From assembly GCA_008802785.1 (NCBI GenBank), contig VUYT01000004.1:434001-498000 (forward strand): a stretch of DNA of 64,000 nucleotides. The letters run 5' to 3'. Below are positions 52,525 to 60,917 of the stretch, piece by piece. A program made the position numbers and the translations under genes. Under the pieces are notes generated by a model, which was not told the origin of the DNA, searched no databases, and worked only from the letters and a program-made list of their open reading frames with translations. The stretch comes from Symmetrospora coprosmae. Its lineage: Eukaryota; Basidiomycota; Cystobasidiomycetes; Symmetrosporaceae. How positions within the stretch are numbered: position 1 is the stretch's first letter; each line of letters begins with the position of its first letter.

Positions 52525-54628
52525 ATGTCGTCGTCGCACCACCAAGACGACGATGCCAGCTTCAACCCGTTCATGGCGGATCCTGATGAGGACAGTCGGC
52601 GCAGCAGCGCACTGCCGGAGGTAGCCCTGGAGCACGGCAACGGCGGCGGCGGCGGATTCGAGGACGTGCAGCAGGATCACACGCAGGCAGAGGTGCAGCA
52701 GCAGGCGCAGCAGGTACCTCTGCCACCTCCCGGCCAGTCGCAATACGTTGAGCCGTCATCCTTCGCCCATGGTAACGAGGAGGAGCAAGGCCAGGCGCCT
52801 GCCCCGCCTCAGCCCGTTAGGCGCCCAACTCGCCTCACCCTCAGGGACAACCTCGACTGGAAGGATGAGATCAAGGTGGGGTGATTGCGCTCGCAATGAT
52901 GGCCTCGGTCCTCTGACGCCCAAGCTCCATGCACAGATCATCGACGCCCAGAAGACGAGCGAGGGCGCCACGTCCACCTACATTGCCTATGTCATCCGGT
53001 CACACGTAGGTTTCCCCCGCCTAGCTTGACTGGCAAGGGTGAAGCATCGCTGACAGCGCTCGCCTCACCCTTCACCAGCAAGGAGACGCTCGCCGCCGCT
53101 ACTCGGAATTCGAGAGTCTCCGCGTTACGCTCATGAAGCTGTACCCGGTGCTCATCGTCCCGCCCATCCCGCCGCACCACAGCCTCACAGACTACGCTTC
53201 CAAGCAGTCGAAAGCCAAGGAGGACGCGTCCGTCATTGCTCGTCGGAAACGCATGCTCCAGAACTACCTGAACCGCTTGGGCCGGCATCCAATCTTTGGC
53301 GAGGAGCGCGTGTTTCAGCGGTTCCTCGAGCCAAACCTCCCTTGGAGTGAGGTTCTCCACTCGCCGCCCGCCAGCTTGCTGCCAAAGAATGTGCTCAAGG
53401 CATCAGCGCGGACGCCTACCGACCCTTCCACGTCCGCCCTTTACGCGAGTCTCCCAGGCCCGTCCTCGACCTCGACATCGGGGTCGGGCTCAGCCTCTGG
53501 GTACGGCCCTGCTCTACAGGAACCCGACCAGCGCTTCCTAGACAGCGAGCACTTCACCAACAAGTTCTCGGCACACCTCAGCGGTTCGCTGGAAAAGGTC
53601 AACCGGAGAGCCATGAAGCGGTGGAGCGAGCTCAGTGCAGACTACGCCGAGCTCGGTGCCGTACTCAATGGCTTCAGCCTCAACGAGGGTAGTAGCGGGA
53701 GTGGCTCAGCCATCGCTGGAATGCAGGGTCCGCAAGAAAGGCAAGCGGTGGAAACGTTGTCGCGGGCTATCGAGAGCACAGGACAAGCGGTTGATTCCAC
53801 GTATTTGCATTCGAATGCGATGGTGCGTGCGGTATTGGATCCCAGCCTGCAGCGAAGAGAGAACTGATGTGCCGCACTTGCCAACCCCTACAGCTGCAAG
53901 AGTGGGAGCGTCTCTTCACGGAACCGTTGGCAGAATACTCGCAGTTCAGCAATATCATCAAGGCGTTGCTGAAATATCGGCACTCGAAGCATCTGCAGTT
54001 CGAGATGACAAGGGACAGTCTAGAGACGAAGAAGATCACACTCGAGGAACTCGAACGGTCAGAGATGGAGGCTCGGCGACTGGACCAGGCGCTCGACCGG
54101 GCGCTCACGCGGGGCAAGCGGGGCGAAAGACCAGGGGAAACCGACAACGAGGTTCTAGGAGCGTCCCACAGTGACCTCTCATCGAGCCAGTCTGCGCGAT
54201 CACAGGCCAGCACTGTCGCCCCAGCGGCGCCAAGCGGAGGAGGGCGATTCGGCTTCCTCGGTGCTCTCAGCCACACACTGAACGGGATTGTCGACTCGGA
54301 TCCGGACATGACGCGGCGCAACACGATCGGCAAGACGCGCGAGCAGATCAACGGACTCGAGTCGAGCATCGACGCCATCACGTCGGACCTGCGGTACGCG
54401 AACCAGATGATCCAGGCAGACCTCGACCGGTTCCAGCGCCAAAAGGTAGGAGATCTCAAGGAGATGTGTACGAGCTTCTCGAGCTTTCACGTCGAAATGT
54501 GCAAGAAGAACCTCGAGATGTGGACGGAGGCGCGGAAAGCCATCGAGGAGATTGATGACGCACCGGCGGCGCTCAACAGCGGCAAGGGGGCTGGGGCAGG
54601 AGAGGGCGGATATGGGAGTGAGCGGTGA
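52525..54628 (+). CDS. Sorting nexin SNX41/ATG20-type (PX-BAR)
   Basis: Endosomal sorting and selective-autophagy protein that binds phosphatidylinositol 3-phosphate. Four exons in phase: 52525-52875, 52937-53005, 53079-53822 and 53894-54628, 632 codons. After a disordered N-terminus the PX domain begins about residue 110: SEGATSTYIAYVIRSHQGD, ARRRYSEFESLRVTLMKLYP (basic RRRYSEF lipid contact) and VPPIPPHHSL (Pro-rich loop), ending FLEPNLPW. A BAR-type helical region follows: RRAMKRWSELSADYAELG, LQEWERLFTEPLAEYSQFS and NQMIQADLDRFQRQKVGDL. Snx41 and Atg20 look alike; I cannot decide between them. Intron 3 uses acceptor ccctacag to give AMLQLQEWERL. Confidence 0.88.
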
Positions 54629-54865: not shown

Positions 54866-55967
54866 ATGCCCTCGAAGCGCAAAATCCACCTCCTCCTGCT
54901 CCCGGATGAGATGCTCCTCCGCATTCGTTTCCACCTGCACACCCTCAGGATCACGTCTACTTCTCACGCACCTGCAGGACCATCCGCGACCTCTACAACG
55001 AGGACTTCTTCCAGTTCGCTGTGACATCAGCGGGATGGGGGCGATCCGCGTTCGACTGGAGGACCAACAGGAGCAAGACTGACCCAGTCTGGAGGGAGCT
55101 GGCAGGAACCATCGTCGCGGACGCTCGGACGTTTGAGACGTACGCAGAGATACCCAAGTGGGCAACTCAGGAGTGTGAGTCGCATCACAGACCCTGAGCT
55201 ACGGCTCTCCGGGGAGGGAGCTGACGCGCAGCTGACTGGGCACTATCCTGTACCATCCATAACGCGCAGCGATCTTCGAGCAAGGAGACCCGATGCTCCA
55301 GGAGCCGACGCTGCGTGTCTGGTCTCGAGCAGACGTAAAGCAGAAGAAGACATGCCTCGAAATCGACAAGGCCTGGTACACTTACGACGTCGAGGACGAA
55401 GACGCCCCCGGTCAGTTCACAGTCTTTGACTACGCCGACGATGCACCCGAGCGATCTGGCCCCGCACCGAGACTGCTGGATCATCCGTACCTCGCGAACC
55501 GCTTCTTCTCGACGCCGCGTATCTCGGTCATCGACGTTGACGACGGCAAAGTGGGACTGGCCATGCCGATCTGCAACGAGAAAGGCGTCCTCGTCCTCGA
55601 TGTCTACTTTTACCTGACGTTCTGGTGAGCTGAAGCACCCTCGAGCCGAAGCACCCTCGAGCCGGAGAAGCGTTCACTCTCGCCGTCTGACTCTGACTCA
55701 TTGATCCCCACAGTCTCGGCCACGTCTCCAACGAGTACTGGCTCGAGGTAGGTGGCGTCACATAGGATTGCCGCATGCGCCATACTGACAACTTCTGGAC
55801 ACTTCGCGAACATAGGGTAGCCATACGTACGTACATCTCTGCGTGCTTCATCCTGATGTCTATGTCTTCTGTGCGCTGACTCTTGTCAACCATCTTACAG
55901 ATTTTTCGAGGGTTTCACAGCATATGGAGCAGGCGATTGTTCCGTCGAGGTCAACTGGGGTAGCTGA
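54866..55967 (+). pseudogene. F-box-like family copy 1, frameshifted
   Basis: First of four tandem relatives. The exon layout matches copy 2: 54866-55174, 55270-55624, 55714-55747, 55816-55826 (11 bases) and 55901-55967. The F-box-like start LLLLPDEMLLRIRFHLHTL is followed by a one-base loss near 54946-54947 compared with copies 2 and 3, which read CTGCAGGAT or CTCCAGGAC where this copy has CTCAGGAT. After that point the conserved DHVYFSRTCRTIRDLYNED continues in another frame. All later exons remain open and in phase, with DHPYLANRFFSTPR and FFEGFTAYGAGDC at the end. The damage therefore looks recent, or is a sequencing error. If read normally the protein would stop after about 100 residues. 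Confidence 0.75.
55632..55663 (+). repeat. 16-base direct duplication inside intron 2 of copy 1
   Basis: The unit gaagcaccctcgagcc occurs twice without a gap, directly after the donor of intron 2. A simple slippage duplication. Confidence 0.9.
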
Positions 55968-56415
55968 ACAGATTGGAATGGCTACTCCTGCGTGGACAGG
56001 CCGAGGGTCCCGCCTGGCTAAGGACTCCGAGCGACCGGTCTTCTAGGGCAACGCGACTCCGAAGACGCAGGCCAGAAATATTTAGATGTAAAGCTGCAGC
56101 AATGCCTGCTGTTTGTCGGGTACCACCGGGCAGCTTTGCCGTCTCCGTACACATCTTACTCGTCTATCTAGTTGTCGCCTTTCCTGCTTGATGTTCGGAG
56201 TCGGATACGACGCACTGTGCGCTTCCTTCGCTCCCGTCGAGTCTGGGTCCGCCATGGCCGACGCGTCTCCGCTCTCCGTGTTGTGACGTCGGAAAGGGCT
56301 CGACCGCCCTTGACGACCACCACGCTGCTCTCTTTCGCTCCACAACGACCATATCACGTCGTTGTGCACACATCTGCGATACAGTCACTGCCGCACCTAC
56401 AGCGAATTGTCGACC
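55968..56415. other. Spacer between F-box-like copies 1 and 2
   Basis: About 450 bases with no recognisable coding or repeat feature; likely promoter of copy 2. Confidence 0.4.
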
Positions 56416-57522
56416 ATGTCAACCCCGACGAAACCTGCGAAACCTGAGCGTGGCCTCCTGGTGCTCCCGAACGAGATGCTGCTGCGTGTCCGATCCCATC
56501 TGCACGCCCTGCAGGATCACGTCTACTTCTCTCGAACCTGTAAGAGCATCCGCGAGCTGTACAGCGAGGAATTCTTCGAGTTCGCCGTCAAGTCCGCGGG
56601 ATGGGGACGCACCCTCTCCGAACAGGTGCAGGCCAATGTCACCAGGACCTGGCAAGCTTTCGCGAGCACCTTGATTGCCAACGGACGCATTTTCAAGGAC
56701 AACAAGGACATTCCCAAGTGGGCGCAGTACGAGAGTGCGTGTTGCCCTTCCGCCCCTCTGGCGTCTGCCTCATGTTCGCCTCACTGGCGGGGAACGCTGC
56801 GGACATGAGCTGAAGCATGTCCGACAACCCGCTACATGACAGGCATCTTCGAAGGAGAAGGGCAAAGCCTGACCAAGGCAAGCCTCAAGGTTCTCAAGCC
56901 GGACGACGTCAAGCGGGGCAAAATCCGCCTCAAGGTCGACTCCGTGTTCTACAACTGGGACGTCAAGAATGAGCAAACACCCGGCCAGTTCACAGTGCCC
57001 AACTATTCTGACGACGAGCCGACCCAGCGAGGCGAAGACCCGAAGCTGCTCGACCACCCCTACCTGGCGAATCGCTTCATCACCACCCCTCGGGTCGCCC
57101 ACCTCGACGTCGATGACGACAAGGACTTGGGCGGCTTCGACATAGACAATGACGAAGGAGTCACGGTGTACGATGTCTACGGCCTCTTGGCTGACGTGTA
57201 AGTGAGGTAACTGCACTACCCGCAGCCGTTCACACTGGCTGAATGTACTGCCATTCTGCAGACTCAACAATTGCATGGATCCGGAGTACTGGCAAGACGT
57301 GCGTGACGTCTGAACTATAATACCCGTCTGTCCCGACAAGACTGCTAATGTAAGCCTGCTGTCGGACTGTACAGGGCATGCACACGTGAGTCGCTCCATC
57401 AGTCAGCTCCATTTGCGCCCGCTCATCCCATCCGTGCCCGTCCTCTTCTCATCAGCTTCTTCGAGGGCCTTCAGAATTACCGAGCCGGAAGCTGTGCACT
57501 GATGGCCAATTGGGGTTCCTGA
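56416..57522 (+). CDS. F-box-like family copy 2, intact, 262 residues
   Basis: The best-preserved member. Five exons in phase: 56416-56734, 56843-57197, 57262-57298, 57375-57385 (11 bases) and 57456-57522. Residues about 12-60 form an F-box-like helix set: LLVLPNEMLLRVRSHLHAL, then DHVYFSRTCKSIRELYSEE, FAVKSAGWGRT. The second half carries the family block GQFTVPNYSDDE, LLDHPYLANRFITTPRVAHL and EGVTVYDVYG. It ends FFEGLQNYRAGSCALMANWGS. I know no named domain for the C-terminal half. The F-box suggests an SCF adaptor. The short repeated duplication suggests a fast-evolving, lineage-specific family; this is inference. Confidence 0.75.
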
Positions 57523-57932
57523 GTTGGCTCTGACAAGAGATTGTGAGCCAGAGATGCAGGCGCGTCCGCCCACGAAAGCGGGTTTAGCACTGAAGTAATC
57601 ATCCTCTGTGCGGGCCGACTGTCCTCCGCTTTTTCTCGGTGCCAGCTTCGAACACAGGGCGATGCTTGAGCGTTGCAGCTATCGCTTGTGAGGCGGAAAG
57701 AGTCTTGCCCATGAGCTCGATGTCTAGCTTGCTAGGCCTGTGTACCCTTGTGTACGCCCAGCTGCAGCGACTCGGACTCGCCTGTTGACCCGTTTTCTCC
57801 GCTGTACCTGAATTTGCCACCGACGCGTTCCTGTCTCCGCGCGTGTGACGTCCGTTTGGGGCCTGGCCTTAGCAACGCCTCTCTCTTCCGCTCCAACCCG
57901 TAGTCAGAGGTCACATACATCGGGACAGAGCC
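57523..57932. other. Spacer between F-box-like copies 2 and 3
   Basis: About 410 bases; no feature beyond a likely promoter of copy 3. Confidence 0.4.
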
Positions 57933-58846
57933 ATGTCGACCTCCAAGATCACCCTTCTGAGCCTGCCGAACGAGATGCTGCTTCGAGTGCGTTCCCACCT
58001 GCACTCCCTCCAGGACCACGTCTATTTCGCCCGAACCTGCAAGACCACACAGAGCCTGTACAATGAGGACTTCTTCAGATTCGCTGTCCGATCTTCAGGG
58101 TGGGGAAGGACTGCTGTCGACCAGAAGGTTCAGACGGGCAACGAAGGGCGCGCCTGGACAACTCTGGCGGGCCGCCTCGTCGAGGATGCACGGATCTTCC
58201 AGCTGTTTGAGGAGGTCCCGGACTGGAGTCGCAAGGAGCGTGAGTACATCAGGTCTGGCGCAATGCGAAGAGACGTACTCAAATTCCAGTGTGGCAGTCA
58301 TCTTCGAACTTGCAGGCACGTTCGACGGCGGCAACGTCGCCACGGTCAAGTCAGCTGCAGATCTCAAACGAGCCGGGCAATGTCTGGCACTTGCCGAGCC
58401 AGTCTCCTACAGCTACGAGAGCCGGAAGCCTGGCCACTTCGCTATCTTCGAGCTGGACCACAAGAAAGAACTCGGAAAGGCTTGGCAACAGAAGATGCTG
58501 GATCACCCATACTTGGCCAACCGCTTTCTTACGTCGCCCCTTGTCGACATGGTCGATCTCGATGCAGACAACGGCAAGATACTGCGAAAATTGTCCAACA
58601 AGGAGGGCGTCACAGTTTACGACGTCTATCAGCCCTTCACTGCCAGGTATGCTGCACGCCATCTGCGGCGAATAGAGCGAACCCGAACTCTACCTGACGT
58701 AGCTGCAGTCTCTCGATGTTCAGGCCGCCAGAGATGCGGGATGGCGATGTAGGTGGCAGATCCCGCGCCCTGAGTTTGCCTGGTTCTGCGTTCAACGCTG
58801 ACATCTTTGCTTGTAATGTTTTTCGTATCAGGGAGGAACTGCGTGA
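57933..58846 (+). CDS. F-box-like family copy 3, 3' end altered
   Basis: Exons 57933-58239, 58298-58646 and 58709-58748 join in phase and match copy 2: LLSLPNEMLLRVRSHLHSL, DHVYFARTCKTTQSLYNEDF, MLDHPYLANRFLTSP and EGVTVYDVYQ. The 11-base exon is present at 58832-58842 (GGAGGAACTGC) with flanking splice signals. The intron that should follow has shrunk to about ten bases, so the sequence resembling the last exon (LFEPFVGF) lies almost directly behind it. Without splicing, translation ends at a TGA at 58844-58846, giving about 236 residues that lack the normal C-terminus. The protein may still be made, shortened; or the copy is decaying. Its end is uncertain. Confidence 0.6.
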
Positions 58847-59384
58847 GCAAGGCCTTTTTGAACCATTTGTCGGTTTCATCAAGTGCTGAAATGCGTCAAT
58901 TCGCCGAAATGCGCTTCCTGGCGCGTCCAGCTTTTTCATGGGGCTGGAGACGTCTCGTCGACAAGGGGTCTGTCTCCTCGAAGCCATCTGGGAGGGTTAG
59001 ACGGCTGCACACGCCGTCTGGTGCGTGTCAGTACAGGACAGTTCGAGAGCAGCCAATTCTGGCCCCTGATCATCAGGCCTGATACTTTTGCGTTCCTACG
59101 CGTCAAGAGACAGGCCTGATAATTCTTACGAGCCTGCCTGAAAGCTACTATCGCTCATCGAAGCGGGTTGGGAAGATGGCAGCAGGGGATGGAGCGAGAG
59201 ATCTGTGCTGCCTGCGAGGGGAGGTATCTGCTGGTCACTTGCCCACTCTCGTGGGGACATCATTGCCTGGCTTGCCGTGCCTGAAAGTGTCATCGCCGTC
59301 GCGTCTCCGCTGTTGCCCCGGTGGCGTTCGCCAGGGGGTTCTGAGCAGGTCTCTCCTTCTCACCATCTCACGTCAGCAAGCACC
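58847..59384. other. Spacer between F-box-like copies 3 and 4
   Basis: About 540 bases. The first 45 bases contain the remnant of the copy 3 last exon. The rest shows no recognisable feature; a gcctgat/atcaggc inverted repeat lies near 59070-59120. Confidence 0.4.
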
Positions 59385-60362
59385 ATGCCCAAGAAGGTCA
59401 AGGGCAAGGAGAAGCGCAAGAACAAGTTTGACAGGGGCTTACTCTCGCTGCCCCGCGAGATCCTCCTCCTCGTACGCGCCCAGATGCACTCGCTCGAAGC
59501 CCACGTCGCCTTCAGCCTCGCCTGCAGGGCGACCAAGAGCCTGTACGACGACAAGTTCTGGCGCTCCGCACTCATCACATCGGGGTGGAGTCTCTCGAGG
59601 CTCTCGGATGACACCAAGCAGGCGCTCAGGGACGACCCGAAGATCCAGATCTGGGCGGGCCTCACAAGGATCATTGACGAGGATGCTCGAAGCTGTGACA
59701 ACGAAGACTGGCGCATCAACATGTGGGCCGAGATCCCCGAGGAAGCCGACTGCGTTCTCCACACTACCAAGGACAGTCAGTTGAGCGGACGTCTGCTCGT
59801 CCCCACTTTGCAGTCCAGCTGATGCATCCCGCTTTCCCTGCCCTATGGGTCAGCCATCTTCGAGGAGGAGTTCCCAGACCGCGAGCATCTCAAGCCGCGT
59901 ACCCCGAAGGAGCTGAAGGAAGCCAAAGTCAAAATTAGGCAAGCCTACGAAGTCGCCTGCATCTGCTCGTGGTCTTGGTCCCCGCCGGGGGAGATCTTTA
60001 AAGTTCAGAAGCTCGAATCGCTCCTTGAGCATCCGTACATGGCCAACAGGCACTTCACCGATCCACCTACGACGTGCATAAAGGTATCAGATGGCCTAGA
60101 GGCGGTTCTTGGCTACTATGACAGCGACATGCCGGGTGGGATGGGAGGTCCGCAAGAGCAGGAGCTTAAGGTTGTCAATCCCTGGGGAGTAACTAGCGGC
60201 GAGGCATATCTGGCTACCGCGGTTCTGTGGGTAAAAATCGACTTGCAGTCAGAGGGAGTGGTAGTATCAGCTCTGACAGCCATTACCGCCTGGGCCTTCA
60301 GCATCCACGAGGCTTTGGAAGGCATCGAGGTCAGTCAGCAATTGCTCAGGCGTCCGAGTTGA
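59385..60362 (+). CDS. F-box-like family copy 4, most diverged, 299 residues
   Basis: Two exons, 59385-59775 and 59854-60362. A Lys-rich N-terminus (MPKKVKGKEKRKNKF) precedes GLLSLPREILLLVRAQMHSL and HVAFSLACRATKSLYDDKFW, clearly the family F-box-like region. The first intron sits at the same place as in copies 1-3 and opens onto the same IFE motif (TIFEEEFPDREHL). The block LLEHPYMANRHFTDPP corresponds to DHPYLANRF. The last part (YLATAVLWVKIDLQ, AITAWAFSIHEALEGIE) has no clear match, and the 11-base exon is not recognisable. The model reads through to 60362; additional introns near 60240-60330 are possible. Confidence 0.6.
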
Positions 60363-60917
60363 CTGCACAGCTGACGGATCCCAAGTGTCCACGCAGAGCA
60401 CTGGTGATCTCGCGATCTGTAAGCAGGAGTAGGCTGGTTGACGCCGGCCTCGCCATTGCATGCTGACGGCGCAGGATCGCACACAGGCAATTCGCTCGCT
60501 TCACGAGCCGTGGCTGCTACTTCACAGCAGACTGGAACTTTGATTCGTAGAGGAGCACCACCATCCCGCATCGACGTGTGAGCGTGAGCTGGCCTTGTCC
60601 ATCCCCGCGTCACGTGTCTATGTAGCCAGGCTTCGCATGGGTAGGGCGTCTTTCGCCAGATGACGATTCTTCTGTCATCATCTAGAAGGACACAGGACTC
60701 GCTGCCGACAGTTAATGAGACATCGAGCCTGGTCATGGACAGAGTCTTCTGCGTCTCCGTCTCTGCCGTTGCTTCTTTCTTTCCCGCACTGCCACTTTCC
60801 CACCTTCCCACGGCCATGCCCGGCTACCTGGGACGCGCAGAGTTGCCGCTTTCTCGAGTCGCCTATTCGACACAGCAATGCATCTTGATCCGCCTTGAGT
60901 GATACGGCAAGACGAAT
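60363..60917. other. Intergenic region before aconitase
   Basis: About 555 bases, promoter of the aconitase gene. Pyrimidine-rich near 60750-60810. No gene or repeat seen. Confidence 0.4.

Follow-up and report, generated by a model that had tools for sequence, protein, structure and literature searches.

F-box adaptors are known as a fast-diverging class of proteins, which makes an array of such adaptors ordinary in kind; there are also F-box proteins that function outside SCF complexes. Their fast divergence is stated for plants and Caenorhabditis in published abstracts. What is new in the locus described here is the identity of the half that follows the F-box, which resembles DUF6699 (PF20415), an uncharacterised fungal domain with named members from Scleroderma, Tulasnella, Armillaria, Desarmillaria and Mucidula. 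A literature search over 5.39 million papers found no occurrence of the name DUF6699. In contrast to this locus, the 13 DUF6699 proteins that were fetched carry PF20415 alone, without an F-box, according to the precomputed Pfam field. The F-box/DUF6699-like fusion makes the role of DUF6699 testable, since it can be asked what this domain binds.

The window, which is the whole stretch of DNA that was analysed, comprises 64,000 nucleotides (C44:434001-498000) of a genome of 20.05 Mb in 77 contigs, with a GC content of about 60%. Together with the short introns, this size and GC content would fit a basidiomycete yeast of the Rhodotorula type. Four paralogues are arranged head-to-tail on its + strand between 54866 and 60550. 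The initial annotation had described a tandem array of four, which holds for the window itself, but the family has five copies in total, as a further one lies 121 bases past the end of the window. The features are the following, in window numbering:

54866..55174, + strand: copy 1, exon 1; the start is F-box-like, and a frameshift of one base falls near 54945 (from the translation)
55270-55624, 55714-55747, 55816-55826 (11 nt) and 55901-55967, + strand: copy 1, exons 2-5
56416-56734, 56843-57197, 57262-57298, 57375-57385 (11 nt) and 57456-57522, + strand: copy 2
56458..56565, + strand: copy 2, F-box-like region, residues 15-50
56956..57522, + strand: copy 2, DUF6699-like C-terminal region (Pfam match at residues 145-236, drawn on to the stop)
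57933-58239, 58298-58646, 58709-58748, 58832-58842 (11 nt) and 58931-59000, + strand: copy 3
59385-59775, 59854-60226, 60302-60329, an uncertain exon 4, and 60487-60550, + strand: copy 4, diverged
64121-65471, outside the window: copy 5, 311 aa; exon 2 carries an insert, and there is one additional intron

The F-box array is real and old and is apparently restricted to a lineage, and the assignment of its C-terminal domain is informative. The proteins present a divergent F-box at the N terminus, a linker split by the shared intron 1, and a DUF6699-like C-terminal half.

Concerning the gene models, the intron phases 1, 2, 0 and 2 are common to all five copies and all introns are GT-AG; copy 5 has one intron beyond these four. 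The first intron, which had been placed at a matching position in every copy, does lie there throughout and is always of phase 1, and the IFE motif follows it directly. The DHPYLANRF block is also present, with the variants EHPYMANRH in copy 4 and CPYLYAR in copy 5. The 11-base exon that three copies were said to keep is exon 4 of copies 1, 2 and 3, while the same exon has 26 nt in copy 5. The descriptive part of the initial annotation was thus confirmed in part, with corrections to the copy number, to copies 3 and 4 and to the intron phases.

Copy 2 is intact and fully open (262 aa, with the tail FFEGL...ANWGS), and copy 5 is fully open as well. The frameshift described for copy 1 was found in exon 1, where one base is deleted relative to copy 2 and a stop appears after 52 codons. 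Beyond it there are no stops in 76 codons of exon 1 or in exons 2-5, which are open from IFE to the stop (154 aa, with the tail FFEGF...VNWGS). Since the frame stays open downstream, either the F-box reading frame of copy 1 was lost recently or the assembly contains an error at that point. Copy 3 had been considered shortened because its exons 3-5 are small and separated. However, exons 3, 4 (11 nt) and 5 are present downstream, and the gene is of full length, with five exons, a fully open frame of 258 aa and a tail (FFMGL...AIWEG) comparable to that of copy 2. Copy 4 is strongly divergent, as had been noted, but it does not end at 60362, where the stop is intronic in both models that were built; its last exon lies at 60487-60550. 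These models differ in exon 4. One candidate (60371-60384) is in frame, with a 41-base intron before it and a weaker donor, and the other (60397-60418) resembles the relative P0007 (STGDLAI vs YTGDRCL) and throws exon 5 out of frame. In exon 4, copy 4 may have undergone a separate frame change.

The splice models are supported by two relatives from other records which are intron-free and read through the exon junctions. P0001 (251 aa, on a contig of 1249 bases) is 50% identical to copy 2 across 95% (E = 3.7e-66) and covers the residues of all five exons, including the 11-nt one, and P0007, a relative of copy 4, spans the end of exon 1 through exon 5. Both carry the source tag 'lgn', presumably for Logan, and we take them to be assembled transcripts of relatives. 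In addition, P0002 and P0003 are unspliced relatives of copy 3 (99% and 87% identity in exon 2), and P0006 is a relative of copy 4 (97% identity in exon 1). The C half of P0007 is 68% identical to that of copy 4.

A profile search at E <= 10 returned eight proteins from 3973 candidates, three of them the window's own, and none of the other five was tagged as coming from NCBI, nr or UniRef. The same database did return NCBI, nr and UniRef records of other basidiomycetes, namely DUF6699 proteins, and for this reason the family looks narrow. Its distribution is apparently lineage-restricted within the reach of this word-based search, in agreement with what had been proposed, and the searches, as far as they reach, turned up no single-copy gene that is widely conserved. 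Inside the genome, a search with copy 2 as query gave best E values of 6.7e-31 for copy 3 and 2.8e-28 for copy 1, and of 3.7e-13 for copy 5 and 4.6e-11 for copy 4, the last two through the first exon only. With copies 2, 5 and 4 as queries, 12, 9 and 8 matches were obtained at E <= 10; those at E < 1e-3 all fall in a single place (C44:488946-499468), and the remaining five, among which is the beginning of copy 1, have E values of 0.03-0.6. Since these searches score the best candidates only, they may overlook relatives that are more distant. The proposed local duplication is supported.

The N-terminal half is, at the level of profile homology, a divergent F-box, which upholds the F-box-like start reported before. 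Copies 2, 3, 4 and 5 and P0001 have an N-terminal match to PF12937 (F-box-like) with E values from 4.1e-4 to 0.03 (6.9e-4 in copy 2), and P0006 has one with E = 0.059. In one scan such a match appeared in five of six members, the sixth being exons 2-5 of copy 1, which lack that half. None of the members scanned reached the gathering cut-off of 24.3 bits, the best score being 20.5 bits. A profile of seven N halves (copy 1 taken from after the frameshift; six used by hhalign) was compared with 16 F-box domains of the same genome, 17 having been fetched and one dropped for an internal stop. This gave a probability of 95.5 and a score of 42.1 over 42 columns, against 15.5 for the best of 100 column shuffles, and the crossed comparison with DUF6699 gave no match (probability 0.2). 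Like the F-box-like domains of SCF substrate adaptors (PF12937/PF00646), the array presents an LP.E.LL.V..HL pattern and a second half with TC/R...L., a different domain after the F-box, and tandem clustering. It differs from them in that its scores lie below the curated cut-offs and in its conserved DHVYFSRTC-type core, which is absent from the 16 domains compared.

No named domain had been recognised in the C-terminal half, but by profile homology it is a distant relative of DUF6699, although it misses the Pfam cut-off. In a whole-library search PF20415 matched P0001 with E = 3e-4 and 21.4 bits, and it also matched copy 2 (E = 0.066) and copy 5 (E = 0.12), that is, three of the six members scanned; the Pfam scan gave no match for copies 1, 3 and 4 or P0007 individually. 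The matches overlap on the profile (positions 23-86 of 131 in P0001, 3-80 in copy 2 and 24-67 in copy 5) and are 43-92 residues long. The score of P0001 is the best one, and the gathering cut-off of 24.1 bits was reached by no member. When seven C-terminal pieces were compared with the 13 DUF6699 proteins, hhalign gave a probability of 66.2 and a score of 34.3 over 52 columns; the best of 100 shuffles scored 15.2 and the reversed control 12.9. A second run with alignment A1, made largely of the same sequences, gave 63.9, and the C half showed no match to the F-box (probability 0.1). Shared with DUF6699 are an AT.PP-like stretch, a hydrophobic strand and VTV.DV at the start of a helix, in the same order, but the alignment covers only part of the domain. 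On these results, the half is termed DUF6699-like and is not filed as a member.

The C halves conserve the motifs HPYLANRF...P...N..GVT.. and a terminal W(G)S, and they are similar to each other in a proper alignment. Against copies 1, 2 and P0001, hhalign scored 138.5 for copy 3 with P0003, 56.2 for copy 4 with P0007 and 40.3 for copy 5, well above the maxima of 100 shuffles each (18.2, 20.6 and 23.2, respectively). The predicted structure of P0001 is poor (mean pLDDT of 42) and confirms neither fold; residues 181-220, the part modelled best (block means of 63-71), are strand-strand-helix. The model of P0009, a DUF6699 protein from Scleroderma, is better (mean pLDDT of 75, pTM of 0.68) and reaches good confidence across most of the domain, with block means of 87-94 at residues 101-170, 61-78 at 171-200 and 88-94 at 201-227. 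Searches of this model against the PDB with Foldseek and VIA gave no useful match among solved structures, which does not show that DUF6699 has a new fold.

Regarding the age of the array, dN/dS was computed by NG86 in ten comparisons, copy 1 being taken in two pieces and compared with copies 2 and 3 only. Synonymous sites were saturated in all ten, with a dS of at least 1.22 wherever it could be computed. Omega was 0.08-0.59 in nine comparisons, values that are rough because of this saturation, and the remaining one was saturated beyond computing. Close relatives of copies 3 and 4 occur in other records, so the array is older than those splits. Judged from these sequence comparisons, the array is a set of old duplicates with one or two frameshifted copies rather than a recent burst, and the copies appear to be under constraint. 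The ongoing birth and death that had been inferred is weakly suggested by the frameshift of copy 1 and the uncertain tail of a second copy, and it is opposed by the saturation, the omegas below 1 and the relatives kept elsewhere. Calling the family fast-evolving agrees with how little identity the copies share, as a statement about identity and not about a clock- or strain-based rate. The interpretation given in the initial annotation is, overall, partly supported.

We consider it fairly probable that the array encodes lineage-restricted short F-box adaptors (about 250-310 aa) with a target-binding DUF6699-like half. The F-box would dock on SKP1 as part of an SCF ubiquitin ligase, and a target protein would be bound by the DUF6699-like half. 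With their diverged C halves, the tandem copies could recognise different or co-evolving targets. A decaying array, in which the majority of copies would be pseudogenes or relics of an old duplication that are not expressed, would fit the frameshift of copy 1 and the possibly out-of-frame tail of copy 4. However, copies 2, 3 and 5 have full frames of five or six exons with GT-AG sites, nine of the ten comparisons gave omegas below 1, even if rough, and copies 3 and 4 have relatives preserved in other records, all of which makes decay very improbable. The proteins could also be F-box-like but work outside ubiquitin ligases, binding SKP1 or another partner without degradation, with a structural or regulatory DUF6699-like half. 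Every F-box score lies below the Pfam cut-off, which speaks for this reading, but the N half can be aligned with ordinary F-box domains from this genome across 42 columns, which makes it unlikely.

Alternatively, a short beta-beta-alpha stretch of the C half could match DUF6699 by chance, the half being an unrelated orphan domain. The match spans only 52 columns at an hhalign probability of 66%, and half of the members lack a Pfam match. Nevertheless, the hhalign score is more than twice that of the best shuffle, the E value of P0001 comes from a whole-library search, and copies 2 and 5 match at overlapping profile positions, so a chance match seems quite improbable. Returning to the adaptor reading, a broader proposal is only tentative: that DUF6699 is a protein-recognition module, joined here to an F-box to form dedicated substrate receptors, with most of the divergence between tandem copies falling in the recognition half. 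The C halves of copies 1-3 and P0001 are 31-49% identical and the N halves 51-66%. However, the values are 26% and 27% between copies 2 and 4, and 26% and 37% between copies 3 and 4. With copy 4, the two halves thus differ little or not at all in conservation, which weakens the view that divergence sits in the target half.

F-box-like genes are also clustered elsewhere in the genome. At E <= 1 there are 89 genome-wide hits, and neighbouring hits lie within 6 kb of each other in 13 pairs. Random placement, with contig ends and gene density disregarded, predicts 2.3 such pairs and gave at most 9 in 1000 trials. Three of the 13 pairs belong to this array, and one pair is on opposite strands. The pairs correspond to 10 clusters, at C1, C3 (two places), C12, C25, C29, C32, C37, C44 and C76, and this array, with four hits, is the largest.

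With respect to the neighbouring genes, an aconitase-family gene (E = 1.1e-56) lies between copies 4 and 5, and on the side of copy 1 the array is flanked by a PX-domain protein (ORF 53043-53867, PX E = 2.1e-18). The next ORF, at 53795-54628 in another frame, shows FAM92 and Vps5 matches just below the cut-offs. Joined across an intron, the two ORFs (53043-54628) probably form one sorting-nexin-like gene.
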